Below are positions 9,051-28,212 of a DNA stretch of 59,499 nt, piece after piece (positions within the stretch are counted from its first letter, which is position 1; each line of letters opens with the position of its first letter). A program made the translations under genes and the position numbers. A model generated the notes under the pieces. It was not told the origin of the DNA and did not search any database. It was given only the letters and a program-made list of their open reading frames with translations. The DNA lies in the NCBI GenBank assembly GCA_963169875.1, contig CAUJEL010000068.1:1-59499 (forward strand), read 5' to 3'. The DNA comes from Candidatus Zhuqueibacterota bacterium (lineage in GTDB: Bacteria; Zhuqueibacterota; Zhuqueibacteria; Residuimicrobiales; Residuimicrobiaceae).

Positions 9051-9635
9051 CTGGCTCTTCTTTTTGATGCGCCCTGCTCTGAGGTGCCGCGTACAGCGCA
9101 GGAACTCGGGAGCCAATCTGTATTCACGCAGTCGCGCTCCAGGGGAGGGCGACCGGGCCGTCCTGCGGACTTGTGCCGGCCAGTCAGCACAGCGACGCCA
9201 ATCCGCCGCAGCAGGTCACTATGGATGCCATCCCGTCGTAGCATAAGAGCATACAGAGACGCCTCAGAATTTCTGAGGCGTCTCTGTATGAGAGAAATCC
9301 TGCCGATGTCATTCCGAGTGTATCGTCTTATAACCAGTTTGTTGCCCTGTTTTCTCGCCATATCACCAATCCCGATTTCGAAACACATGTCTTTCTAATT
9401 TAAAATTCCTCTATCTTGTTGTTATTATAGATTTGAATGTAGTTGTTCCCGTGGCACAGTATTTGCGAATGTCTCCCCAAACGCGAAAAATCAGCAACCT
9501 CGTAAGCGATGGTTAGTTGATGCTCACCGTATGCAATTTCTTGTCTGAGAGGAGCAACTTGTCAAAAAGGATCAGCACCGCGAAAACCATACTCTGGCAC
9601 ACCACACAAAAAGGAATTCTGGAAAGGAGTTGACC
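9051..9635. other. intergenic stretch with one long palindrome
   Basis: 585 bases with no convincing gene. It contains the 41-bp near-perfect palindrome at 9250-9290. The rest (9060-9240 fairly GC-rich, 9390-9600 AT-rich) shows nothing I recognise; the AT-rich part probably holds the promoter of the next gene. Confidence 0.6.
9250..9290. repeat. 41-nt inverted repeat, 20-bp arms
   Basis: CATACAGAGACGCCTCAGAA, one T, then the exact reverse complement. There is no flanking T-run, so it is not a standard terminator. The inner ACGCCTCA/TGAGGCGT core is shared with the palindrome at 13465-13494. Confidence 0.85.
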
Positions 9636-11343: not shown

Positions 11344-13380
11344 ATGAAAACATCGATGCTGACCAGAGCCCTGATACCGCTTTTTTTACTGCTCTCCTCT
11401 CTGCTTTCCGCGCAGAATCTCTTGTTCACCAAGCAATTTACCAACGACCCTGTGTCGCCAGGCAGCACAGTGGAACTACAGTTTACATTAGCCAACCAGA
11501 ACCCCACTGAAGCACTTACGGGCATCAGTTTTACGGATGATCTTGATGCCGCCCTCTCGGGACTGAATGCGGTGGGAACGCCTATAAACGATATCTGTGG
11601 CGTGGGTTCACAACTGTCGGGTACTTCCCTGTTGACATTGACAGGGGGCAATCTGGTGTCCGGGGCATCCGTGACCTTTTCGATTACACTCCAGGTACCT
11701 GCAGGGGCTACTCCTGGTTTCTATCTGAACACGACGAGTCCAGTCATCGCTTATTCCACTTCCGGCACGCCCGTCATGGCAAACCCGGCTTCGGACAACC
11801 TGGAAATAAAAAATATACTTTCTGTTGCGAAAGTATTTGATCCTGGCAGTGTGCCAACAGGCGGGATCAGCACCTTGAAGTTTAATTTTATAAACGTCAC
11901 CATTTCCGCGGCAGAAGCCGTGAGTTTTGCCGACGTTCTGCCGGCGGGTCTGGTGATCGCAACACCCGCCAATGCATCGTCCACCTTTCCGGAAGGGACC
12001 CTGGTAGCTGTGAGTGGATCCGGTGTCATAACGTTTTCCGGGGGTAAGCTCCTTGCGGGCACCAATGCGACCATCACTGTGGATGTACAGGCGCTCATCA
12101 GTGGACAAATGGACAACCAATCCGGGGATGTAACCAGCAGTTTTGGCAATTCAGGTCCCATGTCGGCGTCTTTGCTGGTTACAGATACACCACCCCCCCC
12201 GATCATAACCGGACGCATCAATGGGCAACTGACGGTTGATGAAAACAGAAACGGGGTTCCAGATGCCCACGAGTGTACGCTGCATCAAGTCCCGGTGATT
12301 TTGAGTGGACAAAACGGACAACATATTGCCAAGGCCTTGTCGGATGCCTCAGGCCAGTATCATTTCAAAAACGTTGGCATCGGCACCTACACGTTACGTG
12401 TCGATGATAGACTATGGGACACGCCGGTACACCAGACAACATTCCCCAATCAGGCGATCACCATCAGTATCCCGGGCGAGGAGAAAAAAGCGGACCTGCT
12501 GGTCTATTCAGATTACGTCAATCTGTGCGATCAAACCCTGCTTGATTACCTGGATAACAGTGATGATCCAGACGATGTGCCCAAACAGAGTAATTCCCTG
12601 GTCTTTGTGACCGGTTCACCGACGGATTCGCGAAAAGGAGAAAAGCGGAAATGCGGTTGGAAGAATGCCGTGGACGGCATTTTGCAGGGATGGAACGGGA
12701 CTACCCTGGCCAGGGGGTATCCCGATGTGCATGGTCCTGCCTGGGCGATCTTTGAATTTTTTGATCAGCAGGTGCACCGCTTCAACATGATCGCCGTGCA
12801 AACGGATAATGGCCCGGATGATGATCAAACGGCAGAATCTCGTCAGGTCGACAGACTGCAAATCCTGGTGTCGACGTCCGGAATGGCAGAGGACGATTTC
12901 GTACCCATTGCTGATCATCATCGCCGTTTCAATGGCAACAAGCTGGAATACATTAAATTGAATGACTATGCCGCTGCCCGATATCTCAAACTCGTTCTGC
13001 TCTCCCCCTATACGAAAAGCGGATATCGGCAAATCGTTGAATTCATTCCAACAGCCCAGGACAAGAAGGGAGCCATACCGGCAGATACAGAAGCCCCTCT
13101 TGCCACATGCGAATCTGGCGCACTTGATCATTTCGAGTGCTATCCCAATCCATTCAATCCGTCAACAACGATCGCTTTTCGTGTCCTGCAAGCCGAACAT
13201 ATCAAGGTGCGGATAAGCGATCCACTCGGAAGAGAGGTCGCAACCCTGGTGGATGGCGTAAAGCCCGCCGGTCGCTACCAGGTGGTTTGGGATGCAACGG
13301 ATCATGCCAGCGGGATTTATTTCGTTTCCATTTCTTCTGCAAGTGCGGAAATTGTTCGCCGTATCACGCTGGTGAAATAA
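11344..13380 (+). CDS. large exported protein: DUF11-like repeats, SdrB-like fold, discoidin-like module, T9SS sorting domain
   Basis: 678 residues. A signal peptide (to about residue 24, ending SLLSAQ) is followed by two DUF11-like beta domains (about 25-290; AKVFDPGSVPTGG starts the second). Next comes an SdrD-B/Cna-B-like unit (GQLTVDENRNGVPDAHE ... GTYTLRVDD, about 295-380). A F5/8-type-C (discoidin)-like module follows (about 410-580: GWKNAVDGILQGWNGTT, WAIFEFFDQ, IAVQTDNG, ARYLKLVLL). It ends in a sorting domain, CYPNPFNPSTTIAF ... GIYFVSISSASAEIVRR. The last indicates export by a type IX-like system and attachment or release at the surface. AAAGGAAG precedes the ATG. The discoidin-like module has a close relative in the 44546 gene. 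Ligand unknown. Confidence 0.88.
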   Translation: MKTSMLTRALIPLFLLLSSLLSAQNLLFTKQFTNDPVSPGSTVELQFTLANQNPTEALTGISFTDDLDAALSGLNAVGTPINDICGVGSQLSGTSLLTLTGGNLVSGASVTFSITLQVPAGATPGFYLNTTSPVIAYSTSGTPVMANPASDNLEIKNILSVAKVFDPGSVPTGGISTLKFNFINVTISAAEAVSFADVLPAGLVIATPANASSTFPEGTLVAVSGSGVITFSGGKLLAGTNATITVDVQALISGQMDNQSGDVTSSFGNSGPMSASLLVTDTPPPPIITGRINGQLTVDENRNGVPDAHECTLHQVPVILSGQNGQHIAKALSDASGQYHFKNVGIGTYTLRVDDRLWDTPVHQTTFPNQAITISIPGEEKKADLLVYSDYVNLCDQTLLDYLDNSDDPDDVPKQSNSLVFVTGSPTDSRKGEKRKCGWKNAVDGILQGWNGTTLARGYPDVHGPAWAIFEFFDQQVHRFNMIAVQTDNGPDDDQTAESRQVDRLQILVSTSGMAEDDFVPIADHHRRFNGNKLEYIKLNDYAAARYLKLVLLSPYTKSGYRQIVEFIPTAQDKKGAIPADTEAPLATCESGALDHFECYPNPFNPSTTIAFRVLQAEHIKVRISDPLGREVATLVDGVKPAGRYQVVWDATDHASGIYFVSISSASAEIVRRITLVK

Positions 13381-14971: not shown

Positions 14972-17128
14972 CTAAAATTCTCCCTGTACCCCCGCCGTGA
15001 ACGTCCGCATCGGCATGAGGTTGCTCTCCATGGGCGCATAATTGTACTGCCGCAGATTCTGCACGCCCAGTTTGAAACTGAACTTGCGCCAGTCATAGCT
15101 GACGCGCACATCCCAGAACTTCATCGGCACGCGCTCATTGATGGGATAAATCTTCACCGCTTCCACCTTGCTGGCATAACGGTAATCCAGTTGCACCTGA
15201 ATCCTGGCCACGCGCACGCCCGCCTTGAGCGTGCCGATCAGTTTGGGCCGGTAGGTCAGCGGCTCCTGCCAGGTCAACTCTTTGTGGTTCATGGCCGTTG
15301 CGGTCAACTGCAGACTCGGCACCACCGGCCAATTCTTCCACTGCAGCGGATGGCTGAAATTGGTGGTCGCTTCGATGCCCTGAATACGCGCCCGCGGGAT
15401 GTTGCGGAACTGCACCTGGCCGCGGATCAGATCCATATGCGCCTCGATCAGCTCCCAATACTCATTATCGAACAGCGACACATCCACATTCCAGTTTTCA
15501 TTGATGTACTGGCGCACGCCGATATCATAGGCCCAACTGCTCTCCGCTTTCAACGCCGGATTGGCGACGATCTTGAAATTCATGATCGCCAGTTCGAGAA
15601 AACGCTCGATGATGGTGGCGGCGCGGAAACCGCTGCCCGCTGAAGCGCGGAGGCTCGTCGTCGGCCACGGCTGCCAGTTGATGCCAATACGCGGGCTGAA
15701 CAAATCCTCCTTCAATCCGCCCACCAGCTGGTAGCGGTCATAACGGAACCCGGTGGTGAGACGCAGATTATTGCGCGCTTTCCATTCGTTCTGCACATAA
15801 GGCCCCAGGAAATAGCCCTTGTGATCGCCAAAAAATTTGGTCGAGCCCGCATCGTGCTGGAATTGCACGCCCGCTGTCACCGTATGATTCTCGTGGGGGA
15901 TATAGTCCGCCTGGATCTCGGCGCCTTCGCCATAGGCGGGATTGAAATTGCTGCTCTCCCCGAACTGATTTCCCATCAGCGTGCGAATAAAAGAAGCGCG
16001 CAGATTCATGGCAAACCGCGGCGAGAAGGGGATGACCAGTTTGGTGTAGGTGTTGAGCTGATTGGTGCTGGCGTGATTGTTGAGATTCCTGGCATCGACT
16101 TCATAGGGATCGTTGGGCCCTTTCCACTGCACAAAAAAGCCGCGGTCGATGTAGCTGTAGGCATTATAGATCGTCCATTTGGCGCCGTTGCCGAACTGGA
16201 CATCGAATTTACCGGTGACGTTGTATTTCTGCGCATCGCCGAGTTCGGTGTAGCCGGTTGTCATGAAGCGGCCCAGGGAGATGCGGCCGCCGACGCGGCC
16301 GATGCGTTTGCTGTAAGAGATATCCTCGCGCGTATAGTGCAAGCGCTGGGGATCGGTCCATTCCCAATCGCTGAAATAGGGCTTGTCGTATTGTCCGGCA
16401 GAAACAGAAAACAGCAGCCGGCCTTTGGGATCCGCGTCCTTGGTGAGCACATTGACCACGCCGCCCAGCGCCGAGGCGCCCCACAGGGTGGAACCCGCGC
16501 CTTTCAATACTTCGATCTGCTCGATATCCAGCGGCGGCAGCATGTCCCAGTTGAACTCGCCGGTGTCGCTGGCATAGACCGGCACGCCGTCCAGGAGCAG
16601 CAGCACCTTGTTGCCGGCGCCGAAGGTATAGCCGGTGGAGCCGCGGATGTTGATCTGATTGCCGACAAAGTGCACACCCGGCGCGGTCTCCAGCGCTTCC
16701 TGGATGTTGGTGGCGTTGCGCTGGCGGATCTCCAGAGAGGAGACCACCGAGAGCGAGACCGGCGCCTGGTCCAGGGTCTGCTTGGTCTTGCCCGCGGAGA
16801 TCACCACCGGATCCATGATGATGGGCGTGGGTTTGAGGCGAATGGTCAATGCGGTTTCCTCGCCGGATTTGAGCACGACGCGATCGAGCTGCCGGGCGCG
16901 ATAGCCAACCATGGAGATCCGCAATGAATGGCTCCCCTCCGGGACGTCCTTAATGACAAATTGGCCTTTGCTGTCGGAGACGGCGCCGCACAGGGTGCCG
17001 AGCACCTGGACGTTGGCGCCGGGCAGCGCCTGGCCGCTCTCCTGATCGTAAATCTGGCCGCGCACCTGTGCCTGGGCAAAGATGAGCGCAGGCCATATCA
17101 ATAAAAATAAAAATATATTTTTGGTCAT
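14972..17128 (-). CDS. TonB-dependent outer-membrane receptor (copy A)
   Basis: A 718-residue outer-membrane active-transport barrel. It has a signal peptide (to about residue 19), a carboxypeptidase-regulatory-like domain (about 22-105: GQIYDQESGQALPGANVQVLG), a plug (about 120-225: VPVYASDTGEFNWDMLP, IEQIEVLKGAGSTLWG, GGVVNVLTK) and a beta-barrel ending in GVQGEF with terminal aromatic Phe. It lies 24 bp after a lipoprotein gene and downstream of a secreted-protein gene, forming a set duplicated at 23.9-28.2 kb. It is clearly paralogous to the 25601-27748 receptor; both end with a YPxxERVPxKxWD segment and an N(L/A)xxYNY segment. Substrate unknown. Confidence 0.93.
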   Translation of the reverse strand: MTKNIFLFLLIWPALIFAQAQVRGQIYDQESGQALPGANVQVLGTLCGAVSDSKGQFVIKDVPEGSHSLRISMVGYRARQLDRVVLKSGEETALTIRLKPTPIIMDPVVISAGKTKQTLDQAPVSLSVVSSLEIRQRNATNIQEALETAPGVHFVGNQINIRGSTGYTFGAGNKVLLLLDGVPVYASDTGEFNWDMLPPLDIEQIEVLKGAGSTLWGASALGGVVNVLTKDADPKGRLLFSVSAGQYDKPYFSDWEWTDPQRLHYTREDISYSKRIGRVGGRISLGRFMTTGYTELGDAQKYNVTGKFDVQFGNGAKWTIYNAYSYIDRGFFVQWKGPNDPYEVDARNLNNHASTNQLNTYTKLVIPFSPRFAMNLRASFIRTLMGNQFGESSNFNPAYGEGAEIQADYIPHENHTVTAGVQFQHDAGSTKFFGDHKGYFLGPYVQNEWKARNNLRLTTGFRYDRYQLVGGLKEDLFSPRIGINWQPWPTTSLRASAGSGFRAATIIERFLELAIMNFKIVANPALKAESSWAYDIGVRQYINENWNVDVSLFDNEYWELIEAHMDLIRGQVQFRNIPRARIQGIEATTNFSHPLQWKNWPVVPSLQLTATAMNHKELTWQEPLTYRPKLIGTLKAGVRVARIQVQLDYRYASKVEAVKIYPINERVPMKFWDVRVSYDWRKFSFKLGVQNLRQYNYAPMESNLMPMRTFTAGVQGEF

Positions 17129-17152
17129 GACGATTCCCGCCCATAGATGGCA

Positions 17153-17971
17153 TTATTGAGGATTTACTATTTTCGACCAATCCGCCTGGATATCGAGACC
17201 GGAGAGGGCCTCACCCGCCTTGACGCGGAATTTGGCGGGCTCGCCGGGCTGCGCCGGATTCTCATAGACGCCGATGGTCTGGAACTCGGTCAGATTAGAA
17301 TTTTCCGGCAACCAGAAGACAGCCAGATATTCGATGTTGCCGTTGCGCACCGGCAGTTTAAAGTGATAGGGATTGGTGCCGACGCTGAAATCGATGGACT
17401 TGAGAAAGGTCAGATATTCCACGCTCACCGTCGGTTTGTAGCGGTAAGCCGCCACGGCTGTGGCCAGCGTGTTGGCTGGGAAGGGGCCATTAAAATAAAT
17501 GGTGCCCTCGATGCTGGCATCGCGATTGACCTTGTCCCAGTTGGCAACCAGATTCATCTGATGCTGAGGTTGCGCCGTTGTGAGATCAAAACCCAAGGGG
17601 AGCAGGTTATTATTGATATCCAGAGGCAGGGAGAGGACATCGGCCAGATTGGATTTGGTATCATTGCTGTACCACCACAGACTGATGGCATCGTAATGAC
17701 CCAGCGGCAGGTCGATCTCGGTGTGCACGGAATCCAGTCCGATGGGCAGGCTGTTGGAACTATGGAACAGCTCATTGATGGCGTGGGGCGGAAAATCAGG
17801 CGTCACGATCAGATAAATGCCCTGGGTGTTGGCAGGCGGTGTGCCGTGGAACTTGATATCCACCAGCAGCCGGCCCGGCAGCGGCGCCAGGCCGTGGTCA
17901 TCGGAACAGCTGCTGAGAAAGGACAGCAGTCCCGGAAATAAACACAGAAAGTATTTTGCTTTCATAGACAT
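17153..17971 (-). CDS. 'DHGL' lipoprotein with two tandem domains (copy A)
   Basis: A 272-residue predicted lipoprotein: the signal peptide ends in the lipobox LSSC (Cys about 22), directly followed by SDDHGLAP. Two related beta-rich domains follow (about 34-150 and 155-270). Both contain a strand like LLVDIKFHG or GTIYFNGP near the start and a region with YDAISLWWYSNDT or IEYLAVFWLPENSN towards the end. The shorter lipoprotein at 27763 has the same DHGL motif and a single such domain. I know no named family for it. Genetic linkage to the TonB receptor 24 bp downstream suggests a surface-exposed substrate-binding or plug-assisting role, which is inference. AGGA lies 5 nt before the ATG. Confidence 0.82.
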   Translation of the reverse strand: MSMKAKYFLCLFPGLLSFLSSCSDDHGLAPLPGRLLVDIKFHGTPPANTQGIYLIVTPDFPPHAINELFHSSNSLPIGLDSVHTEIDLPLGHYDAISLWWYSNDTKSNLADVLSLPLDINNNLLPLGFDLTTAQPQHQMNLVANWDKVNRDASIEGTIYFNGPFPANTLATAVAAYRYKPTVSVEYLTFLKSIDFSVGTNPYHFKLPVRNGNIEYLAVFWLPENSNLTEFQTIGVYENPAQPGEPAKFRVKAGEALSGLDIQADWSKIVNPQ

Positions 17972-18044
17972 GGATTCCTGATTGACAGATCATTTTATCT
18001 TCGCCTGTGGATGAACCCGGAAGAACCCGGATTTGGTCATCGCT

Positions 18045-18071
18045 CCAGCTCGACGAGGCTCGTCGACCTGG
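18045..18071. repeat. GTCGACGAG hairpin, copy 1
   Basis: CCAGCTCGACGAG, a central G, then CTCGTCGACCTGG: 13-bp arms with one mismatch. A near-identical hairpin is at 50559-50585. It lies in the gap between the secreted-protein gene and the lipoprotein gene. Confidence 0.75.
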
Positions 18072-18097
18072 TGTGCACGGGCACGAAGGCGCTCTCA

Positions 18098-18121
18098 AAC
18101 GCGCGGACGCGTCCGCGCGTT
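18098..18121. repeat. 24-bp perfect palindrome, GC-rich
   Basis: AACGCGCGGACG followed by its exact complement. It lies 16 bp downstream of the secreted-protein stop codon and may end or attenuate that transcript before the lipoprotein-receptor pair; there is no U-tract on the minus strand. Confidence 0.7.
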
Positions 18122-18136
18122 CAAAGCGGGCGTATG

Positions 18137-19852
18137 TCACCGCAGCAGCAACAGCTTCCGCTCCGCCCGGAACGATGCTCCCTGCAGCACCGCAAAAAAG
18201 ACACCGCTGGGCAAGGATCGACCATCCTGATCCCGGCCATCCCATGACAGCTCATGCCCCCCCGATCCGAACCGCTGATCCGCCAGGGTTGCTATCCTGT
18301 GGCCGGCGACATCATAGATAGTGCAGACCACATGCTGCGGCCGTGACAGCTGAAATGTTAATCGCGTGCCGGCATTGAAAGGATTGGGATAATTCTGCAG
18401 CATTTGAAAATGGCTGGCGATCACCTCTTCGACCTGCTCCACGCCGGTCAAAAAAGTCACCGGCAGAGCGCGATGTTCGATATAATCGGCCAGCTGTTGC
18501 GCCTGTTCGCGCGTATTGAACGTGCCGGGCAGAAAATACATGAGAAAACCCAATTTCAGGCTTTTGGGAACGCTCATCAGGAAGCCTTGATCCCCATAGG
18601 ATTTGCCATCGCCTGTATCCTTGGCGCCTTTGAAAATATGGGCATCTCCCATACCGCCGCTGCTGTTGTCATAAAAATAGAGCTGAATGGCATCGGCCAC
18701 CGTGTCCGGGAATGTGGTCATGGAAAAAATCGCACCCTGGTCACCTGCCGTGAGCATCCACTCATTGATGGGTTTTTCGATGACTGGGTCAGGGACGTCT
18801 GCAACGCCATCCACGACCAGTCCGTTATTGCGTTTGCTGAAGAAGCGCATGCCTGCGGCAGCAGGTGAAAGATCCCAACTCTGCCTCAGGTTGTACAATT
18901 CGAGATAGACCTCCGCTTCCGGAAAAGCCTCTGCCAGGCTGTTCGGGTCGAGCGCCTCGCCTCCTTCGAGCGTGCCGCTGAAGGGATAGAATTTGACCGC
19001 GACAAAGAAGGCCATCGCGTCCTCGAGTCGGGTGTAGCCCAAGCGAATGGTCATGCGCACCTCGCGCACCATTCTGACCACCGGATTTTTAGTGTAGCCT
19101 TTATAATCAGAATAGACCTTGAGATACATTTCATTGGTGTTGACAAAAGGAATGCCCACCACGCCAAAATCGCCATAGCCATTCAGCAATATTTTTTGAC
19201 GGTCAAAAATATCCACGCCGGTGCCAAAAGGCGGATTGAGCTGAATGCTCCTGAGGATGCCAAAATTCTTGTCAATGGCGACATTGTAATATTTGCTGCA
19301 GAGACTGTCCGCATCCGGATAGTAGGTGAACTGATACGGGGTGGGCACGGATTCCGTGATGGTTGAAGAGCGGAACAGATAGGCAAAGGCGCTTTTCTCG
19401 TACGAACGGGGATCGTAGACGCGGATTTCAAGCCGTTTGTTAAAGCTTTTGGCCTCGGCATTATCAATCCAGGCTTTGGGCGGCGCCTGATCCCCCATAT
19501 CGCGGATCATGAACACCAGTTCATCATCTTCATCAAAGAGTCCATCATCCAAGGCTTGATCGGAACAGGCGTAAAAAAAACGGCTTTTGGCCGGATCGTA
19601 CGGATTGGCCATGATGATGCGCTCGTCAACCTGGAACGGCATCAGACGCCACGATTGCGTGCTGTCGCTCCAGGCATAAAGATACATCTCCTCGACCGGC
19701 ACGCCATAAAATTCCTGCAGCAGCGACTGCTTCATGACCATGGGCTCGTAAATTCGCTCACGATACAACTTGTTGGTTTCTGCAATGCCAAGGCCCGTCA
19801 AAACAAAGAGCAGCAGACCAAACCAGGCGGTTCTCATGATCCGGATTGACAT
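18137..19852 (-). CDS. exported protein of unknown family with T9SS sorting domain (copy A)
   Basis: 571 residues. Signal peptide (MRTAWFGLLLFVLTGLGIAE), a long beta-rich body, then a sorting domain from about residue 482 (MLQNYPNPFNAGTRLTF ... SGVFFAVLQG). The body shares clear landmarks with the 557-residue protein at 23928: W-L-MPFQVD, DDELVFMIRDMGDQAPPKAW, DLSPAAAGMRFFS followed by VDGVAD, GDGKSYGDQG, and LGFLMYFLPG. I do not recognise a named family or catalytic motif. GGAGG lies about 10 nt upstream of the ATG at 19852. It is probably a surface component supplying or binding the ligand for the receptor encoded downstream; that is inference from linkage. Confidence 0.85.
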   Translation of the reverse strand: MSIRIMRTAWFGLLLFVLTGLGIAETNKLYRERIYEPMVMKQSLLQEFYGVPVEEMYLYAWSDSTQSWRLMPFQVDERIIMANPYDPAKSRFFYACSDQALDDGLFDEDDELVFMIRDMGDQAPPKAWIDNAEAKSFNKRLEIRVYDPRSYEKSAFAYLFRSSTITESVPTPYQFTYYPDADSLCSKYYNVAIDKNFGILRSIQLNPPFGTGVDIFDRQKILLNGYGDFGVVGIPFVNTNEMYLKVYSDYKGYTKNPVVRMVREVRMTIRLGYTRLEDAMAFFVAVKFYPFSGTLEGGEALDPNSLAEAFPEAEVYLELYNLRQSWDLSPAAAGMRFFSKRNNGLVVDGVADVPDPVIEKPINEWMLTAGDQGAIFSMTTFPDTVADAIQLYFYDNSSGGMGDAHIFKGAKDTGDGKSYGDQGFLMSVPKSLKLGFLMYFLPGTFNTREQAQQLADYIEHRALPVTFLTGVEQVEEVIASHFQMLQNYPNPFNAGTRLTFQLSRPQHVVCTIYDVAGHRIATLADQRFGSGGHELSWDGRDQDGRSLPSGVFFAVLQGASFRAERKLLLLR

Positions 19853-19876
19853 ATAAAAAATCCTCCTGTAAACATC

Positions 19877-21022
19877 TCAGCGGTTGCGCGCTTCGATGGG
19901 GCATTGCTCGATGACAATTTCCCCGTTTTCGCCAACCAGCGTAAAATATTCCCACAAATTGACCGTTGAACAGACATGCCGCGGGACCAGGGCCAGATAA
20001 TCCCCTATCTGCAGCTGTGTTTTTTCAGCCAGCTCAACCACCGTGTGTTCTTCACTCCATTTCACCGCCTGAATGCCGGGCAGGCTGAACGCCTCCACCG
20101 GTCCCTGATCCACGGCCCAGCGCTTGTGCCCCAGATTCAGCGTACGGCGGTCCGGCGCGGTCTGGTCGACCACCTGGGCCAGGATGAGCGCCGCGGGCGC
20201 AAAGGTATCCGGCATCAGCCGGCCGCAGGTGGTGTCAAAGAGCACCCAGGTGCCCGGGGAGAGCCAAAGTTCCGCGTCAAATTGCTGTGTGTTCAAATAC
20301 TCAAAATCGGGCCAGAAACCGGGCGTGCCACCGACCACCATCCGCGGCACTGCGACCTGGTTCTCATTGAAATGGCGCAGGATCTGCAAAAGCAGATCCA
20401 TGCTCTGCCGCGTGATCGCTCTGCGTTCGTCCAGCGTCGCCTTGTAGTTATGGCCGTCATAGGCGTGCAGACCCGCAAACCATAGGCCATAGAGACGGCT
20501 GGTTTCACGATAGAGGTCAAAAGCCCGCTCCGCGGCAACCCCGGTGCGCCCCATGCCCACATCCAGATCGATGAAAAAGCGCACATCGAAATCGTGTTTT
20601 TTGGCCAGTGCCGGCCAGATGGCGGCGTGTTCGGGATGGGCGATCTGAATATAGAATTGCACCTCGCGGTGCGCGGCCATGCGTTCAGCCAGCCAGGCCG
20701 CCTGCGCCTGCAGCAGGGGATAGGCGACAAATATTTCCCGGGCGCCGCAGCCCAGGAGCATGTCGACTTCATTGAGGGTCGCCTTGAAACGCGATACCCC
20801 CGCATCCAGCAACTGCTGCGTCACCCAGCCCGATTTATGCGTCTTGACATGGGGGCAGAGCAGGGACAGATCCGCATCAGAGCGCACCTGCTGCAACATC
20901 TCCCGCATGGTATTGATGTTGGCCTGAACCCGCTCTTGCCACACCAATAGCCGCGGCGTGATGATTCTGCCGGGATCGGCGATGCGATAGGTGGTGTTGC
21001 AGGCGGGTAATGTGAATTCCAT
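19877..21022 (-). CDS. D-threonine aldolase / D-serine dehydratase-like PLP enzyme
   Basis: 381 residues with an alanine-racemase-type N-terminal barrel. The PLP lysine is in CPHVKTHK (about residue 65), followed by ATLNEVDMLL, FFIDLDVGMGRTGV, GLHAYDGHNY and VVGGTPGFWPDFEY. The C-terminal domain has LVPRHVCSTVN, where the His and Cys match the metal-ligand pair of eukaryotic D-serine dehydratase and bacterial D-threonine aldolase (DSD1-like family). The reaction is likely cleavage or dehydration of a D-hydroxyamino acid, exact substrate unknown. Start uncertain between the ATGs at 21022 and 21028; AGG 8 nt before 21022 decides. It lies 24 bp upstream of the secreted-protein gene and may be co-transcribed with it. 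Confidence 0.85.
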   Translation of the reverse strand: MEFTLPACNTTYRIADPGRIITPRLLVWQERVQANINTMREMLQQVRSDADLSLLCPHVKTHKSGWVTQQLLDAGVSRFKATLNEVDMLLGCGAREIFVAYPLLQAQAAWLAERMAAHREVQFYIQIAHPEHAAIWPALAKKHDFDVRFFIDLDVGMGRTGVAAERAFDLYRETSRLYGLWFAGLHAYDGHNYKATLDERRAITRQSMDLLLQILRHFNENQVAVPRMVVGGTPGFWPDFEYLNTQQFDAELWLSPGTWVLFDTTCGRLMPDTFAPAALILAQVVDQTAPDRRTLNLGHKRWAVDQGPVEAFSLPGIQAVKWSEEHTVVELAEKTQLQIGDYLALVPRHVCSTVNLWEYFTLVGENGEIVIEQCPIEARNR

Positions 21023-21171
21023 AAGCATAACCTGTAGCAAAAAAGTCGCTCGAAATCGTGGGTTTTAATGAACCCTGCAAAATGATTTGTAAAACCTGAT
21101 ATTTTTAAGAGTCAGCAAGCCGCTCGCGATGATCGGCCAAACTGAACGCTGCCATTTGCTGTGCGGTGAGG

Positions 21172-21280
21172 TGTCACCGTTTTTGGGGCTGCCTGAACCT
21201 GTCGAAGGCAGCAATATGCCGGCCTCGACAGGCTCAGGCGTGCGTGCGCTGTCGCGCCGGCGCATGCCACCACGCTGACC
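21172..21280. repeat. dispersed repeat, copy 1 (CCTCGACAGGCTC type)
   Basis: GCTGCCTGAACCTGTCGAAGGCAGC and GGCCTCGACAGGCTCAGGC, then GTGCGCT, GCCGGCGC and a final CGCTGA. The same ordered blocks recur at 50426-50545. The element contains an internal inverted repeat (CCTGTCGA / TCGACAGG), like intergenic palindromic elements of other bacteria. Confidence 0.75.
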
Positions 21281-21282
21281 CA

Positions 21283-22137
21283 TCAATTCGCATCCTGTAC
21301 CTGATATACCGTGCGCGTGGGAAAGGGAAATTCAATACCTTTTGCATCAAACTCGATCTTGAGCCGCCGGTTGAATTCCCGGGCGAGGCGCCACTGCTGC
21401 CCCGGCCTGGTGGTCAAGCGCGCCCGGATGACGACAGATGACTCGGCAAAGCGCTCCAGTCCGAAGAGCTCGATTGGCTGCAGCATATCCACCTTGAAAT
21501 CGGCATCGGCGCGCAGCGACTCGTCCACCGCCTTGACCGCCTCGATGGCGCGGTCCACATCCTGATCATAGGTGATGCCGATATCCATGACGTACTGGCT
21601 AAATTCCTTGGTCATGTTGGTGACGATATCGATGACGCCATTGGGAATGAAATGGACATTCCCCGAGACGTCGCGCAACACGGTCATCTTCAGACTCACC
21701 TTTTCGACGGTGCCGCTTTTCCCTGCGGCCTGAATGACATCGCCGACGCGGATCTGGTCATTAGCGAGGATAAAAAAGCCGTTAATCACATCCTTGATCA
21801 GACTCTGGGCGCCAAAACCGACGGCGATACCGGCGATGCCCGCGGCTGCCAGAACGGGGCCGATTTCAATGCCCAGTTCGCTCAAGATCGTGATGATGGC
21901 CACGGCAAAAATGATCACGGACAGGGTGTGGCGGATCACCACCCCCAGGGTCTCGGCGCGCTTGACCGATTCTTCATCCAGTTCCTGACGGCTGATCAGA
22001 AGCGCCATCTTGCGCGACAACGTGCGAATGGCTTTGTAGATCAGCAACGTGATGATAACAATGATGAAAATTCTTATTCCGGAGCGAAGGACGGAAACCG
22101 CCACATCCGTGGTCCAGAGCAGATATTTATCCATCAT
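21283..22137 (-). CDS. MscS-family mechanosensitive channel
   Basis: A 284-residue inner-membrane protein of the small-conductance mechanosensitive channel family, which releases solutes on osmotic downshock. Three membrane helices are visible (about 13-38, 66-88, 92-112). The third, pore-lining helix AAAGIAGIAVGFGAQSLIKDVINGFFIL is the MscS signature, followed by the beta domain (DQIRVGDVIQAAGKSGTVEKVSLKMTVLRD ... IPNG) and an alpha/beta C-terminus. It follows the acyl-CoA-synthetase-like gene by 8 bp and is probably translated from the same mRNA. Confidence 0.93.
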   Translation of the reverse strand: MMDKYLLWTTDVAVSVLRSGIRIFIIVIITLLIYKAIRTLSRKMALLISRQELDEESVKRAETLGVVIRHTLSVIIFAVAIITILSELGIEIGPVLAAAGIAGIAVGFGAQSLIKDVINGFFILANDQIRVGDVIQAAGKSGTVEKVSLKMTVLRDVSGNVHFIPNGVIDIVTNMTKEFSQYVMDIGITYDQDVDRAIEAVKAVDESLRADADFKVDMLQPIELFGLERFAESSVVIRARLTTRPGQQWRLAREFNRRLKIEFDAKGIEFPFPTRTVYQVQDAN

Positions 22138-22145
22138 AACGCCCC

Positions 22146-23837
22146 CTACACATAGAGATACCGTTTGATCTTCTGTGTTGGCGTCTTGTCGAAGGGCTCG
22201 GTCTGCTCGATGATCTTGTTGATGCGCGAGAACGGCTTGACCTGGCTGTTGACGTGGGTACGGATCATTTCCAGGCGTGCGACGATGCGTTCCTTGATCT
22301 CTGAGTCGTTCAGTTTTTCGGAGGAAAACATCTGCTCGAGTTCCTCATAGTTGAGAAACACGCGCGCGATCAGCTGGCCGTTTTGTTCATAGACCAGTGA
22401 CTCCAGCACATCCGCTTCTTCATTCAACACCGCCTCGATCTCTTCAGGATAGATATTTTCTCCGCTCGGGCCCAGGATCATGTTTTTGAGCCGTCCCTTG
22501 ATGTAGAGGTAACCGTTGCTGTCAAAGGCGCCGAGATCGCCGGTGCGCAGCCAGCCCTCTTTATCCAGGACTTCGGAAGTTCGATCCGCGTCTTTATAGT
22601 AGCCCTGCATGACCATGGGGCCGCGGACGAGGATTTCGCCCTCCCCCGTATGTGGATTGGGTTTGTCAATTTTGATCTCTACGCCCGGCAAGGGTTTTCC
22701 GGTCGAGCGCAACACCGTGCCTGCCGGATCGGTGCCGGCGATGAGGGGCGCGGTTTCGGTGAGACCGTAGCCAATGGCATAGGGGAATTGGGCTTCGCGC
22801 AAAAAATGTTCGACTTCAGGCGCCAGCGATGCGCCGCCGATGCAGAAACTGCGCAGCTCGCCGCCAAAAAAGCGCAGCAACTTTTTGCCGGCCGCGCGAT
22901 GCAGCGTTCGCCGCATAAAGTTGATGCCGTAAAGCCCGCGCACCACCCGCTTCTGGGTGAACTGCGGCAGAATGCGCGTCTTGAATATTTTTTCGATCAC
23001 CAGTGGCACGGAGCACATGATGGTGGGCTTAACCGACTGCAAGGCCGGTGTCAGCACCCGCGCCGTCGGCGGCTTATCGACGTAATAAACCGCTGCGCCG
23101 ACGAGCAGCACCAGCACCAGGCCAAGCGTGCATTCATAGGCATGTGACAACGGCAAAATGGACAGCAGCCGGTCGGTATGATTGACATCGATAATCCCGG
23201 TTGTGGCAATGGCATCGGATACGATATTTTTATGGGTGAGCATGACGCCCTTGGAATTTCCTGTGGTGCCCGAAGTATAAATGATCGAAGCCAGATCATC
23301 TTCCTGCACTTCCCTGGTACGGCCGGCCCAGCGTTTGGCGGCGCCTCTGAGTTTATCCAGTTCGATGCTTCCCTGGTCAATGAATTCTTTCAAGCGTTCG
23401 CCTTTAGTGCGCAAGGGGACCGTTGAAAAATCCTCGATGATGAAAACCGAGCGCAGCGACGATTCGAACTCATCTTCCACTTTGCTGTACAATTTTTCCG
23501 AGACGAAAATGGCCTTGGCGCCCGAATGGCGGACGATGTGCTGCACCTCCGCAGTGGTGAAATCAGGCAAAATGGGAACGACGACCGCACCCATGGTGGT
23601 GATGGCTAAATAGGCAATGCCCCACTGCGGTTTGTTCTCGCTGAGAAGCGCCACGCGGTCCCCGGCAATAATACCCTGATTGGACAAGAGTTCCGAAACA
23701 ACATGCACTTTGTCCTGGAGAGCACTGTAGTTGATGGTCGCGCCATCCACTTCACCCAATGCGATGTGGGTGGGATAGGTTTGCACGGAATTCTTCAACA
23801 GGGCATTTAATGTCAAAGTTGACAAATTCGTTGTCAT
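22146..23837 (-). CDS. AMP-binding acyl-CoA synthetase-like ligase
   Basis: A 563-residue ANL-superfamily enzyme, most like long-chain fatty-acid CoA ligases: it would adenylate a carboxylic acid and transfer it to CoA. The ATP/AMP motif IIYTSGTTGNSKGVMLTHKN (about 190-209), GYGLTETAPLIAGT, GWLRTGDLGAFDSNGYLYIKGR and the C-terminal hinge are intact. The catalytic lysine appears in DKTPTQKIKRYLYV at the extreme C-terminus. No membrane segment. It heads a two-gene unit with MscS; AGGATCAACCT precedes the ATG. Confidence 0.92.
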   Translation of the reverse strand: MTTNLSTLTLNALLKNSVQTYPTHIALGEVDGATINYSALQDKVHVVSELLSNQGIIAGDRVALLSENKPQWGIAYLAITTMGAVVVPILPDFTTAEVQHIVRHSGAKAIFVSEKLYSKVEDEFESSLRSVFIIEDFSTVPLRTKGERLKEFIDQGSIELDKLRGAAKRWAGRTREVQEDDLASIIYTSGTTGNSKGVMLTHKNIVSDAIATTGIIDVNHTDRLLSILPLSHAYECTLGLVLVLLVGAAVYYVDKPPTARVLTPALQSVKPTIMCSVPLVIEKIFKTRILPQFTQKRVVRGLYGINFMRRTLHRAAGKKLLRFFGGELRSFCIGGASLAPEVEHFLREAQFPYAIGYGLTETAPLIAGTDPAGTVLRSTGKPLPGVEIKIDKPNPHTGEGEILVRGPMVMQGYYKDADRTSEVLDKEGWLRTGDLGAFDSNGYLYIKGRLKNMILGPSGENIYPEEIEAVLNEEADVLESLVYEQNGQLIARVFLNYEELEQMFSSEKLNDSEIKERIVARLEMIRTHVNSQVKPFSRINKIIEQTEPFDKTPTQKIKRYLYV

Positions 23838-23878
23838 AGGTTGATCCTGTATTAAATGATTATTCTCTGCCTTTTCTC

Positions 23879-23913
23879 TACCCTTGCGAAGGTTTTAAGC
23901 CTCCGCAAGGGTA
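23879..23913. repeat. CCTTGCGAAGG hairpin, copy 1
   Basis: TACCCTTGCGAAGG ... CCTCCGCAAGGGTA, 14-bp arms with one mismatch, 7-nt loop. It sits between the end of the copy-B secreted-protein gene and the ligase gene. Related hairpins are at 36779 and 57419. Confidence 0.8.
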
Positions 23914-23927
23914 TGTCTTGGGTATGT

Positions 23928-25601
23928 CTAATAAACCACCTGCACTTTGGTCATGAGCATTTGCCCGGCGCAATGGACGCGCACAAAATAAACACCCTGC
24001 GGCGCCAGATATCCTTTGGCGTCGCGTCCATCCCAGCGCAAGAGCGTGCGGCCGTTGACAGGCGCCGAAATCGAACGCCAGGAGGTCACCAGCTGACCGA
24101 GCAGATTGAAGACCTGGACCTCATAATCTTGTGCAACGGGCATGGCCGTGATCTCCCATGCGATCTCGCCCCGGTGCGGGTCGAAGGGATTGGGATAGCC
24201 TGCACCCAGTTTAAATCCATCGGGTACGCTTGCCGGAATATCGACCCTGGTTCCCGGATCATTGAGAACGCTCACTTTGACGGCCGGATCCTGTTGAATC
24301 CATTTGAAAAAAGCATCGGCAAATGTTGCATCGCGGTCGCGTTCGGGAAGAATATACAAAGTGAATCCCATGGTCACATTGTTGGTGATCAATCCGCTGC
24401 CGGATTTGGCGGTGACCACCAGCCCCATATCGCCGTAGGACTTTTTGTCACCGCTTTCAAGGGTGTTGTCCGATGTGCCGCCCGAACGATCATCGCGATA
24501 GTAGAGGATTGTCGCACCGTTTTTGGTGCTGGGCATCTCCATGACCACGAAGAGGGTGCCCTGGGGACCGCTGGCCATGGTCCACTGTTTTCCGGTCTGC
24601 GACGCCAATGCTGTGGCGATGTTTTCAGCTGTGCCATCGATGGCCGCCCCGCCGCGATTGTTGTCCGAATAGAAGCGCATGCCCGCCGCCTGCGGACTGA
24701 GGTCGAGTGACTGACGTATCAGCTTGGCGCCGGCCAGAACCAGTATGTACTCGCTCTCCAATTGTTTATCCTTGACACCGATCATCACCGACCAGGGATA
24801 ATAGAAGAGGGGATAATCGATCGGCGCCGTGCCAATGCCCGGCACGGTCAGTTTGGAGCGCTGATCGCGAATCGCGCGCACGACCCCCGGCCAATAGGTA
24901 TAGGTGGAATCCTTGCTGCCCGGGATGGAGCCATTCCCCTTAAGGGTGTCTTCCGTGGCCGCATATTTGCCGATGGTGGGATCCAGTGCCGTACCCGCCA
25001 CCCGCAGTTTCAACCGGTCGATGAGATCGGTTTTGGGATTGTCCGCCATGGCCAGATAATCGATCCAGCCGTGATAATTATGGCCGATGATATAGGCGTT
25101 GGAAAAAACCGTATCCGCGCCGCTGCCCTTGGGGGCGCCGATATGACGGAAATAGCTTTTGGGCTGACTGGAGCTGGGATAGAGATAGAGCCAGCCTTTC
25201 TGGGTAGCATCGCTTCCTTCAGAAATCTCGATTTCGACACGCCGGGCCGCCCGGATGCCATTCTCCGCCAGCCAGGCCTTTTCCGGAGCGCGATCGCCGA
25301 GATCCTCAGGCATGAAGAGCACTTCGTCGTTTGCATCCAGGTAGGTGGGAGCTGGTTTGCCATGATAATTTCCATTAGCATCGCGATAATCCACCTGAAA
25401 GGGCACCAGATGCCAGCTGCCGTCGCTGGCGTCATAACGAAAAGCGCGCCAGTCATTAAAAGCGAACTGACTGACGGTTATCCTGGCGCCCGCCATCTTG
25501 ATGGGCACATATTTCCGCTGCAACGTCTTGAACTCGGCGCTCTGCGCAAATTGGATGCTCAACATCATCAACACAACAAAAAGAATCGTACGTTTCAACA
25601 T
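23928..25601 (-). CDS. exported protein of unknown family with diverged sorting domain (copy B)
   Basis: 557 residues, paralogous to the 18137-19852 protein. Signal peptide (to about residue 21, ending FAQSAE), then WHLVPFQVDYRD, DEVLFMPEDLGDRAPEKAW, DLSPQAAGMRFYSDNN with IDGTAE, GDKKSYGDMG and MGFTLYILPE in the same order as copy A. The C-terminal about 85 residues (GAGYPNPFDPHRGEIAWEI ... GVYFVRVHCAG) are a diverged sorting domain. Its ATG overlaps the stop codon of the TonB receptor by one base (TAATG), so the two are translationally coupled. No catalytic motif recognised. Confidence 0.86.
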   Translation of the reverse strand: MLKRTILFVVLMMLSIQFAQSAEFKTLQRKYVPIKMAGARITVSQFAFNDWRAFRYDASDGSWHLVPFQVDYRDANGNYHGKPAPTYLDANDEVLFMPEDLGDRAPEKAWLAENGIRAARRVEIEISEGSDATQKGWLYLYPSSSQPKSYFRHIGAPKGSGADTVFSNAYIIGHNYHGWIDYLAMADNPKTDLIDRLKLRVAGTALDPTIGKYAATEDTLKGNGSIPGSKDSTYTYWPGVVRAIRDQRSKLTVPGIGTAPIDYPLFYYPWSVMIGVKDKQLESEYILVLAGAKLIRQSLDLSPQAAGMRFYSDNNRGGAAIDGTAENIATALASQTGKQWTMASGPQGTLFVVMEMPSTKNGATILYYRDDRSGGTSDNTLESGDKKSYGDMGLVVTAKSGSGLITNNVTMGFTLYILPERDRDATFADAFFKWIQQDPAVKVSVLNDPGTRVDIPASVPDGFKLGAGYPNPFDPHRGEIAWEITAMPVAQDYEVQVFNLLGQLVTSWRSISAPVNGRTLLRWDGRDAKGYLAPQGVYFVRVHCAGQMLMTKVQVVY

Positions 25602-27748
25602 TAAAAATCTCCACTGATAGCCAGCAAATAATTCCGTATTTCGCCGAGCACGCGCTCGGAGACGGTGTAATTGTAATTCAACGCGTTGCGCGCCACAACC
25701 TGGACATCGATCTTGCCGAAGCGGTAACCGCAGCGCAGATCCCAGATTTTGGTCGGAACGCGTTCATCGAGCGGATAGACCGCCACCTTTTCGATCCGCC
25801 CCATGTAACGATAATCCGCCCCCATGGTGAACCCCTGCCAGCGCAGGCTCGGCGACAATGAAGCGATGAAGCGCGGCCGGTAGAGCAGGATTTCATCCGT
25901 CTCCGTCTCGCGCGGATCCATCCAGGTGGCCGTGGCTTGCACATTGATGCGATCCTGCCAGAAGCGCAGGCGGCATTCGGTCTCGATGCCCATGATGCGC
26001 GCCGCCGGATAGTTGATGAACTGCGCCTTCAGCTGCGAAGCCAACAGCGTCGGCTCGATGAGGTTCTTGTAGCGGTTGTAGAACCAGGTGACCTCCCCGT
26101 AGGCCCAATTGCCAACGCTCTGGCGGATGCCCACGTCCACAAGGATGGAGCGCTCCGGCTGCAATTTGGGGTTGGGCACGGCTTTGAAATCCTTCGATCC
26201 GGCGGTGATGAAGCGCTCGACCACCGTGGCGGCGCGAAACCCGCGGCCAAAAGACCCGTGCAATACGGTGCCGAACAACGGCTGGTAACTGAAGCCAATT
26301 TTCGGACTGACCTGCATCTCGAGCGAATCGCCAACCAGTTGATAAGTGTCCCAGCGCAATCCCGCATTCAGATGCAACAGTTGCGATACCGTCCAAATTT
26401 CCTGAATGTATGGGGAAACGCCGTTGGCGACGCGTTTGCCGTAATATTCTGATTCGACCGCATCGCGCTTGTAATCCAGGCCCATGGAGATGCTGTGGCG
26501 GTCAGACGGCTGCCAGGTGAACTGCCATTCTCCGCTGGCGCCGATGGCCGGCGTGAAGGCGCTGGTGATGTTGAAGGGCACGCCGACGAGTTGCTGATTA
26601 TAGGAGAGCCGTGCCTTGCCGGAGAGGCGCGGAGAAAAAACCTGCTGATAGACCGCATAGCCCACAAAACCGTTCAGTGTATAGCTGTCGCCGCGGTCGG
26701 GTGAAGGCACATTTAGCGCGCGGTTCTGCTCGAGCCACTGCAAAAAGATCTCGCGCTCTTCCCAGCTGTAGGTCGAAAAGAACGTCAGCGTCGCATGGTT
26801 GGGCAGCTGCCACACTGCCTTGCCGCTAAGGTACCAGCGCTCGAAGCGGCCATTCTCGCGGTCACCGGTGGATTGATGGCGCGAGGCGGCCAGGCGCAGG
26901 CCAACCGGCCCGAAGCTGCGCGAAAGGCCCATATCGGTGCGATGATAATAGCGCAGCTTGTCCGTCCATTTCCACTCCGGCACCGAGGGTGTGTCGTACA
27001 TACCCGAGGCCTGGCGGAAGGTCGCTGACCAGGATGCCGTGGGCGCTTTGGTGATCATGTTGACCACACCGCTGAGAGCGCCGGAACCGTACAGAGAGGA
27101 AGCCGCGCCCTTGAGAACTTCCATGCGTTCAATTTCCGTGATGGGAACGATGTTCCAGTTGGCTTCGCCGAGATCGCTGGTGAGGATGGGCACCTCATCC
27201 AAAAGCACCAGCATGCGGCTGCCGCCGAGGCGATTGTATCCGGAACCGCCGCGGATGTTGATATTTTCTCCCACCAGAGTGACGCCTGGCACCAGCTGCA
27301 GGGCCTCTTCCGTGCGCAGCAGGTTGCGCTGGCGGATGGAGGCGCGGTCCATGACGCTGATGCTCGCCGCCGCCGAGGCCAGGGTCTCCGGCTGGCGCGA
27401 GCCCGTCACCACCACCTGATGCATCTGAATGACGGTGGGTTTCAATTTGATCTGTACGGATGTTTTTTGCCCCGCCGCGACGTTGAGCGACAGGGTTTCA
27501 GGCTGAAAGCCGATATAGGTGGCGCGTAAGCGATGTTCTCCAGCCGGAACGCCCTGAATGGTGAAATACCCTTGTCCATCGCACACCGCGCCATACACGG
27601 AACCCATGATCTGTACATTGGCGCCGGGCAGGGCCTCGTTGTTTTGTGCATCGAGCACCCTGCCGCTGATTTGGCCGGTCTCTGCCGCGTGAAGGGCGAG
27701 CTCGCCAGCCAGCAAAAACAGTAGAAGGGATCGTATCACTCTATTCAT
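25601..27748 (-). CDS. TonB-dependent outer-membrane receptor (copy B)
   Basis: 715 residues. Signal peptide (to about 21), carboxypeptidase-regulatory-like domain (about 25-110: GRVLDAQNNEALPGANVQIMG), a plug with VPILTSDLGEANWNIVP, IERMEVLKGAASSLYG and GVVNMITK, and a barrel ending in AISGDF. It aligns by eye along its whole length with the 14972-17128 receptor. It lies 14 bp after the single-domain DHGL lipoprotein gene and overlaps the secreted-protein gene by one base, so this copy is an operon lipoprotein-receptor-secreted protein. Substrate unknown; neither plug nor barrel shows a feature that identifies it. Confidence 0.93.
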   Translation of the reverse strand: MNRVIRSLLLFLLAGELALHAAETGQISGRVLDAQNNEALPGANVQIMGSVYGAVCDGQGYFTIQGVPAGEHRLRATYIGFQPETLSLNVAAGQKTSVQIKLKPTVIQMHQVVVTGSRQPETLASAAASISVMDRASIRQRNLLRTEEALQLVPGVTLVGENINIRGGSGYNRLGGSRMLVLLDEVPILTSDLGEANWNIVPITEIERMEVLKGAASSLYGSGALSGVVNMITKAPTASWSATFRQASGMYDTPSVPEWKWTDKLRYYHRTDMGLSRSFGPVGLRLAASRHQSTGDRENGRFERWYLSGKAVWQLPNHATLTFFSTYSWEEREIFLQWLEQNRALNVPSPDRGDSYTLNGFVGYAVYQQVFSPRLSGKARLSYNQQLVGVPFNITSAFTPAIGASGEWQFTWQPSDRHSISMGLDYKRDAVESEYYGKRVANGVSPYIQEIWTVSQLLHLNAGLRWDTYQLVGDSLEMQVSPKIGFSYQPLFGTVLHGSFGRGFRAATVVERFITAGSKDFKAVPNPKLQPERSILVDVGIRQSVGNWAYGEVTWFYNRYKNLIEPTLLASQLKAQFINYPAARIMGIETECRLRFWQDRINVQATATWMDPRETETDEILLYRPRFIASLSPSLRWQGFTMGADYRYMGRIEKVAVYPLDERVPTKIWDLRCGYRFGKIDVQVVARNALNYNYTVSERVLGEIRNYLLAISGDF

Positions 27749-27762
27749 TGAATCATTTACCT

Positions 27763-28212
27763 TTATTTCGATGCGGGCCAGTCACAATAAATATCGATAT
27801 CTTTGGCCACGGGGTTATTCTTGTCGAGCGTGACCGGCTGAATTTCCCAGCCATGGGTTTCATCGAGTCCATAAATACCCAGGATGTTGGTGTAATCCCA
27901 GTCCTTGCCTTTTTCCCGGTAGACCACAGCCACGACCTGATACCGCGCCAGCGGTGCCGGCAGACGATAGGCGGGTGATTCCTGGCTTGTATTCAGAGAG
28001 GTATTGGTGATCACCAGATCGCCCAAACCCTGGGGCGGGAAATTCACCACCGCGACCACCCGGGCCGCATCGATCTTGTCCGGTTTGGCGCCGGGGTTGG
28101 AAAAAATCACCCGCCCGCTGATTTCGGATTCGATGATGCCGAGTCCGTGGTCGATCTCACAGCTCGATAAAAGAGAGAGCGTGAGAAGAGTGACCAGATA
28201 AGTTTTCTTCAT
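27763..28212 (-). CDS. 'DHGL' lipoprotein, single domain (copy B)
   Basis: A 149-residue predicted lipoprotein: signal peptide with lipobox LSSC (Cys about 18), then EIDHGLGI, the same motif as in the copy-A lipoprotein at the same place. One beta-rich domain follows (GRVIFSNPG, VVAVVNFPPQGLGDL, RYQVVAVVYREKGKD), matching each of the two domains in copy A. First gene of the three-gene copy-B operon. Known TonB systems often pair the barrel with a surface lipoprotein that captures ligand (SusD-like in Bacteroidetes); this protein is far smaller and not SusD-like. Confidence 0.8.
   Translation of the reverse strand: MKKTYLVTLLTLSLLSSCEIDHGLGIIESEISGRVIFSNPGAKPDKIDAARVVAVVNFPPQGLGDLVITNTSLNTSQESPAYRLPAPLARYQVVAVVYREKGKDWDYTNILGIYGLDETHGWEIQPVTLDKNNPVAKDIDIYCDWPASK

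Follow-up and report, generated by a model that had tools for sequence, protein, structure and literature searches.

Putative lipoprotein-assisted TonB import units in the Zhuqueibacterota: receptor-lipoprotein pairs joined by a T9SS-tailed protein or a FadL-type pore

TonB-driven passage of ligands is established for TonB-dependent receptors (TBDRs) in general, and the details of lipoprotein-assisted TonB import are known mainly from Bacteroidota. The precedent for such uptake is vitamin B12 import by Bacteroides, where BtuG, encoded beside the receptor BtuB, acts as a ligand-binding, capping lid (PMC10404256; for the cap analogy also PMC7782687). SusC-SusD and RagA-RagB import glycans or peptides with an adjoining lipoprotein, HmuR-HmuY serves haem in Porphyromonas, and in Thalassolituus a TBDR (TOL_0244) and a FadL homologue (TOL_1625) are co-induced on long-chain alkanes (PMC6304351). 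Here we analyse a window, the whole 59,499-nucleotide stretch of contig CAUJEL010000068.1 from a Candidatus Zhuqueibacterota bacterium (GCA_963169875.1), which holds two sets of genes, each encoding a TBDR, a lipoprotein with a DHGL motif (LIP) and a secreted protein with a type IX secretion system (T9SS) tail (SEC). We find that both sets belong to old lineages conserved across the phylum, and that the same genome holds a third lineage in which a FadL-type pore accompanies the receptor and the lipoprotein.

Two paralogous sets and their conservation

Sets A (14972-19852) and B (23928-28212) lie on the minus strand and are transcribed in the orders SEC_A, LIP_A, TBDR_A and LIP_B, TBDR_B, SEC_B (Table 1). 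An earlier note on this DNA had given the open reading frames, the 1-bp overlap of TBDR_B with SEC_B and the 14-bp gap between LIP_B and TBDR_B correctly. The paralogy that it proposed for all three protein types also lies far above chance, with 38% identity over the full length of the receptors (E 2.2e-153), 29% between the SECs (E 9.5e-35) and 28% between the LIPs (E 4.5e-6).

Loci were collected first from LIP matches and afterwards from SEC matches; the proportions given here describe that sample, in which many contigs are short. LIP relatives occur in 52 of 60 near genomes and, by profile, in 74 of the 82 genomes of the phylum, while the SEC N-terminal domain is found in 75 of the 82. A TBDR adjoins LIP in 67 of 70 loci, directly downstream in 66, and one of the three loci without it lies at a contig end. 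The module suspected by the earlier note is real and phylum-wide, and its expectation of linkage to TBDRs holds fully for LIP, with a further 19 of 20 loci described below, and only partly for SEC. LIP profile matches that carry names come mostly from metagenome-assembled genomes of candidate division KSB1 and of Calditrichota. KSB1 is handled jointly with Zhuqueibacterota in PMC11683472, and the source genome belongs to this KSB1/Zhuqueibacterota group; TonB, secretion and lipoproteins all go unmentioned in the Zhuqueibacterota paper. Beyond the phylum, a single LIP_A-type pattern run over GTDB genomes returned 26 loci, of which those with a phylum name were again mostly KSB1 or Calditrichota. 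A search for plasmid-borne relatives found none.

Comparison of the loci reveals two orders that are fixed across the phylum, SEC_A-LIP_A-TBDR_A and LIP_B-TBDR_B-SEC_B. Several genomes join them in one six-gene block, LIP_B-TBDR_B-SEC_B-(other genes)-SEC_A-LIP_A-TBDR_A, and the window is such a block. The SEC tree unites the B-type SECs in one clade (SH-aLRT 99), requires three changes for the A-type SECs and places the solo SECs between the two types. After a first tree had been inspected, the B-type label was given to five SECs that lie at contig edges or are flanked by TBDR_B and SEC_A. The AU test (p 0.065) does not reject a single origin for all SECs linked to a receptor, so that one or two recruitments are compatible with the tree. 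Receptors with SEC downstream likewise form one clade of the TBDR tree (SH-aLRT 99), FadL-linked receptors cluster as well (99, with one LIP-only row), and the type of partner tracks the TBDR clades. From the fixed orders and these clades we therefore conclude that the difference in order between A and B is old and lineage-specific and involved no shuffle. Consequently, the argument for function that the earlier note drew from membership conserved despite shuffled order is not supported.

TBDR_A and TBDR_B match PF07715 (plug) and PF00593 (TonB-dependent beta-barrel) far above cut-off. Contig C210 of the same genome encodes a third relative with 39% identity, whereas five further TBDRs of this genome align chiefly over the N-terminal/plug region, at no more than 95 bits, and are split from the LIP-linked receptors in the tree (support 99). 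No specific receptor model was reached by TBDR_A and TBDR_B: they score 112 and 110 bits against a cut-off of 368 for SusC/RagA, 101 and 128 against 600 for BtuB (TIGR01779), and 132 and 99 against 645 for TOL_0244. The haem-receptor model TIGR01785 is the best NCBIfam match of both, under its cut-off (179 and 146 versus 317), and the closest relatives of known structure include CirA, haem receptors and BtuB. The histidine between the FRAP-like and NPxL motifs is missing in 53 of the 55 receptors with a readable motif.

As the earlier note had it, LIP is not SusD-like. No member matches a Pfam family, NCBIfam likewise gives none, no SusD, HmuY or BtuG model is hit, and a sequence search of the PDB gave no credible match. 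The AlphaFold2 model of LIP_A, built on an alignment of 32 sequences (mean pLDDT 90.7), is almost all-beta and has two domains. The two halves are homologous (profile comparison, probability 98.5%), and LIP_B-type proteins correspond to a single copy that matches the N-terminal half of LIP_A (probability 99.7%), which confirms the paralogy of the two lipoproteins. The Foldseek matches, CnaB-type pilins and fimbrillin-like proteins, have low TM-scores; from the model we therefore regard one or two beta-sandwiches of the transthyretin/CnaB-like kind as the likely fold, which would set LIP apart from SusD and BtuG, and leave the exact family unset. In the motif tally, C-x-x-D-[HKQ]-G-[LI] follows the lipid-anchor cysteine through most of the family. 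Two long relatives of 598-606 aa (L170:9541-11337 and L182:9376-11196) apparently contain more than two copies of the domain.

SEC is an undescribed beta-rich domain followed by a T9SS tail. Both C-termini match T9SS/FlgD-Ig sorting-domain models, in line with the earlier note: SEC_B passes TIGR04183, SEC_A passes PF13860 but misses TIGR04183 (20.4 bits, cut-off 23), and profile matches of the tail include PorU, PorZ (PG93) and FlgD chains. The genome encodes PorU (887 bits) and SprA (658 bits), both above cut-off, so that the type A sorting domain of T9SS cargo and the machinery for its export are both present. Across this genome (G000), well over 100 places encode a T9SS-type tail like that of SEC_A, and the cell therefore probably exports many proteins by this system. 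The N-terminal domain matches no Pfam or NCBIfam family (all members were compared with Pfam), which agrees with the earlier note, and a PDB sequence search returned the sorting tail only. For the AlphaFold model of SEC_A (pLDDT 88.3), the best Foldseek matches are GH2 beta-galactosidases and a GH38 mannosidase at TM-scores of about 0.23-0.28; a viral fold library gave mainly sorting-tail and low-score matches, including a GH65 protein. GH2, GH38 and GH65 have a galactose-mutarotase-like domain in common, and these weak structural matches hint at such a fold for the SEC N-terminal domain. About 20 polar residues are near-invariant across 93 SECs, linked and solo alike (Q74 and Y158 in 93/93, R260 and R323 in 99%), and this pattern makes it likely that SEC has a conserved site of its own, for binding or catalysis. 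Solo SECs stand without a nearby receptor, sometimes as tandem pairs (L009:401-2899, L011:2231-4135, and loci such as L122, L123 and L140).

Between the sets of the window lie genes for an acyl-CoA synthetase, an MscS channel and a D-serine dehydratase-like enzyme. The last is a conserved neighbour of SEC_A only in some families of the group; A-type neighbours also include a transglutaminase, and a 4HBT thioesterase follows TBDR_A in three other loci. In L076:3025-5287 and a syntenic block of L079, two ExbD genes and a TonB/GltG-like gene stand directly upstream of SEC-SEC-LIP-TBDR, and some A-type sets lie near genes for the PorX response regulator or SprA (L078:5770-7326, the syntenic gene in L080, and L058:14919-19001), which may be chance. 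Elsewhere in the window, 11344-13380 encodes a secreted DUF7933/DUF11/SdrD_B protein with a T9SS sorting tail, and 9630-10748 a protein with phage-tail-type features and a Peptidase_S74 chaperone domain, to which the product of L019:9424-10656 is similar by eye.

Table 1. Features of sets A and B and of two genes between them, with positions in the window
Feature	Positions	Strand	Basis
TBDR_A (718 aa): CarboxypepD_reg N-terminal extension aa 22-110, plug 120-224, beta-barrel 271-692	14972..17128	-	Pfam; distinct LIP-linked TBDR subfamily
LIP_A (272 aa): lipoprotein with two homologous predicted beta-sandwich domains, 24 bp upstream of TBDR_A	17153..17971	-	AlphaFold2, profile comparison
LIP_A lipid-anchor Cys22 and adjoining DDHGL motif	17888..17908	-	Sequence; motif tally over LIP family
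SEC_A (571 aa): N-terminal domain of undescribed family (about aa 30-470) and C-terminal sorting domain	18137..19852	-	
SEC_A C-terminal T9SS/FlgD-Ig-type sorting domain (about aa 486-571)	18140..18397	-	PF13860 above cut-off; profile matches
D-serine dehydratase/alanine-racemase-fold PLP enzyme, 24 bp directly upstream of SEC_A	19877..21040	-	Pfam PF14031, PF01168; synteny
Acyl-CoA synthetase (AMP-binding) between both sets; neighbour in the window's own family	22146..23837	-	
SEC_B (557 aa): SEC_A paralogue downstream of TBDR_B, 1-bp overlap	23928..25601	-	Clade of B-type SECs
SEC_B C-terminal T9SS sorting domain (about aa 469-557)	23931..24197	-	TIGR04183 25.7 bits, cut-off 23
TBDR_B (715 aa): TBDR_A paralogue, identical domain order	25601..27748	-	Pfam; TBDR comparison and tree
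LIP_B (149 aa): single-domain lipoprotein version, 14 bp upstream of TBDR_B	27763..28212	-	
LIP_B lipid-anchor Cys18 and adjoining DHGL motif	28141..28161	-	Sequence; motif tally

A third lineage with a FadL-type pore

A third lineage, type C, had been overlooked by the earlier note. In the same genome, the third LIP gene (L019:1882-2712) lies downstream of a FadL/TodX-type pore gene and 34 bp upstream of a receptor gene that is cut by the contig end. The lineage is represented by L019:1882-4443 and by L163-L181. The pore (L019:2995-4443) matches PF03349 (Toluene_X, E 2.3e-43) and does not reach the equivalog cut-off of E. coli FadL. Among 20 loci fetched for this lineage, LIP adjoins a TBDR in 19, and a FadL relative stands beside nearly all.

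A TetR gene runs divergently from the pore gene, and FadR is by far its best-scoring family (in L019, E 1e-49 and 169 bits); the TetR genes of type C score 169-193 bits and just miss the equivalog cut-off of 200 (NF053878). In L019 it is followed by genes that look, from their sequence only, like etfB and etfA and by an Fe-S oxidoreductase gene, a combination present in several genomes; in other families M49 and M3 peptidases come after type C instead. Because of the FadL pore and the FadR-like regulator, fatty acids or similar hydrophobic ligands are likely for type C. Between the FadR-like gene and the pore gene lies a perfect palindrome (L019:4569-4593) with 11-bp arms, AAAAAGTGAAT-TTC-ATTCACTTTTT, which is a candidate operator. 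It does not occur in the window. An operator common to type C and the window sets was considered and rejected, since a guessed FadR consensus had no match and the core of the palindrome is unique in the genome.

Weighing the possible roles

We consider it more probable than any other reading, and a little better than an even bet, that the sets are lipoprotein-assisted, TonB-driven import units in which SEC captures or prepares the ligand. The membership and constant order of the genes, their conservation across the phylum, the folds from prediction and the T9SS genes are observed; complex formation, surface exposure, transport and ligand class are what we infer. The components may play the following roles: (I) TBDR and a surface-exposed LIP would form the core, with LIP docking on the receptor as a lid or ligand-binding cap by analogy with BtuBG and SusCD; (II) SEC, exported by the cell's own type IX system, would stay on the surface or be released, and would bind or modify an extracellular ligand before handing it over; and (III) TonB energy would then pull the ligand through the receptor. 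In the sister lineage, the same core would work with a FadL-type pore that replaces SEC, beside the FadR-like regulator. The role suggested by the earlier note, capture by the exported protein and import by the receptor, is plausible.

Several observations weigh against this proposal. Of the 93 sampled SECs, 31 are not linked to a TBDR; since these have retained the conserved residues too, SEC can probably work without a receptor at its side. B-type pairs that branch early have no SEC linked to them, neighbouring genes vary among families so that no single ligand class emerges, and no Rfam riboswitch, for B12 or otherwise, was found in the searched loci. With about a third of the SECs alone, we therefore take the LIP-TBDR pair as the core and SEC or FadL as the exchangeable partner.

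The same solo SECs, which share the near-invariant polar residues of linked ones, together with LIP-TBDR pairs that lack SEC, would also fit a transporter made of LIP and TBDR only, with SEC an independent surface enzyme or adhesin that is merely co-transcribed. This is unlikely, if by no means negligible: in two groups of TBDRs the linkage to SEC holds unchanged across many families, and genomes G041 and G030, whose B-type pairs have no linked SEC, still hold close SEC_B relatives elsewhere (L125, L120).

Alternatively, all lineages may import fatty acids, acyl compounds or other hydrophobic molecules that TBDR and LIP collect and that FadL (type C) or SEC (types A and B) presents. The type C context with its FadR-like, etfBA and oxidoreductase genes, the acyl-CoA synthetase between B and A in the window's family, the thioesterase behind TBDR_A and the alkane-induced pair of Thalassolituus all agree with this. 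However, the acyl-CoA synthetase (FadD) and thioesterase neighbours are confined to some families, other type C loci carry peptidases, the A-type neighbours include the D-serine dehydratase-like enzyme and the transglutaminase, the type C palindrome is not in the window, and both receptors score well under the TOL_0244 cut-off. We hold this, too, to be unlikely. A further reading, a TonB-energised, lipoprotein-assisted importer of fatty acids or amphipathic molecules in which the core is combined with a FadL pore or a T9SS-exported carrier or hydrolase, as modular lipid scavenging peculiar to KSB1/Zhuqueibacterota, seems to us distinctly unlikely.

Glycan uptake in the manner of SusCD, with SEC as a carbohydrate-active enzyme or binding protein, would fit the glycoside hydrolases among the structural matches of SEC. 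These matches have very low TM-scores, however, no Pfam carbohydrate family is matched, LIP is not SusD, the SusC model is missed by far, and no glycoside hydrolase occurs among the neighbours examined, which makes this reading improbable. Uptake of haem, cobalamin or a siderophore, like HmuRY or BtuBG, is very improbable: the best NCBIfam model and the nearest solved relatives of the receptors point that way, but the haem-model scores are far below cut-off, the FRAP/NPxL histidine is nearly always missing, no cobalamin riboswitch was found in the searched loci, and LIP matches neither HmuY nor BtuG. Equally slight is the probability of an assembly or display machine, with TBDR, lipoprotein and FadL-family barrel helping to assemble or attach surface proteins, as BamG, a FadL homologue that binds a surface lipoprotein, does with BamH in the Bacteroidota BAM complex (PMC12578637, PMC12611786). 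The placement of A sets in some families near SprA or PorX, or beside ExbD and a gene of the TonB/GltG-like kind, would fit such a machine. However, type C is accompanied by a regulator of the fatty-acid type and by electron-transfer genes, and few families show the proximity to T9SS genes, which could be due to chance.

Comparison with described systems

In sum, a largely uncultured phylum of the same superphylum as the Bacteroidota appears to own a receptor-lipoprotein pair whose lipoprotein differs in fold and which most of its genomes have kept. Searches of Pfam and NCBIfam found no entry for LIP or the SEC domain, which represent two protein families. The alternation of the third partner between a T9SS protein and a FadL pore offers a test case for how such pairs gain extracellular partners and for the use of TonB energy on hydrophobic nutrients.

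Like Bacteroidota T9SS cargo with a type A sorting domain, SEC has the tail and the machinery is present; unlike that cargo, its N-terminal domain falls in no searched family. The Thalassolituus pair resembles type C in combining a TonB receptor with a FadL homologue for hydrophobic substrates, but no LIP-family lipoprotein is described there, and the window receptors stay under the TOL_0244 cut-off. HmuR-HmuY shares a receptor with an adjoining small lipoprotein, and the window receptors are nearest to the haem-receptor model; membership was rejected, as TIGR01785 is missed, LIP has no HmuY match and the expected histidine is present in only 2 of 55 receptors. SusC-SusD and RagA-RagB share the TBDR with a CarboxypepD_reg extension and the adjoining lipoprotein. 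SusD is, however, a helical TPR lid, whereas LIP is smaller and predicted to be beta-rich, and membership was rejected on this ground and on the low SusC/RagA scores. BtuB-BtuG has the same side-by-side coding of receptor and surface lipoprotein. It differs in that BtuG is a beta-propeller and LIP probably one or two beta-sandwiches, in the B12 riboswitch, which was not found in the searched loci, and in the third partner, of which neither the SEC nor the FadL kind is described for BtuBG; with the receptors also under the TIGR01779 cut-off, membership was rejected here as well. Together with its SEC or FadL partner, the LIP-TBDR pair looks like the phylum's own equivalent of the sets with which gut bacteria import nutrients.

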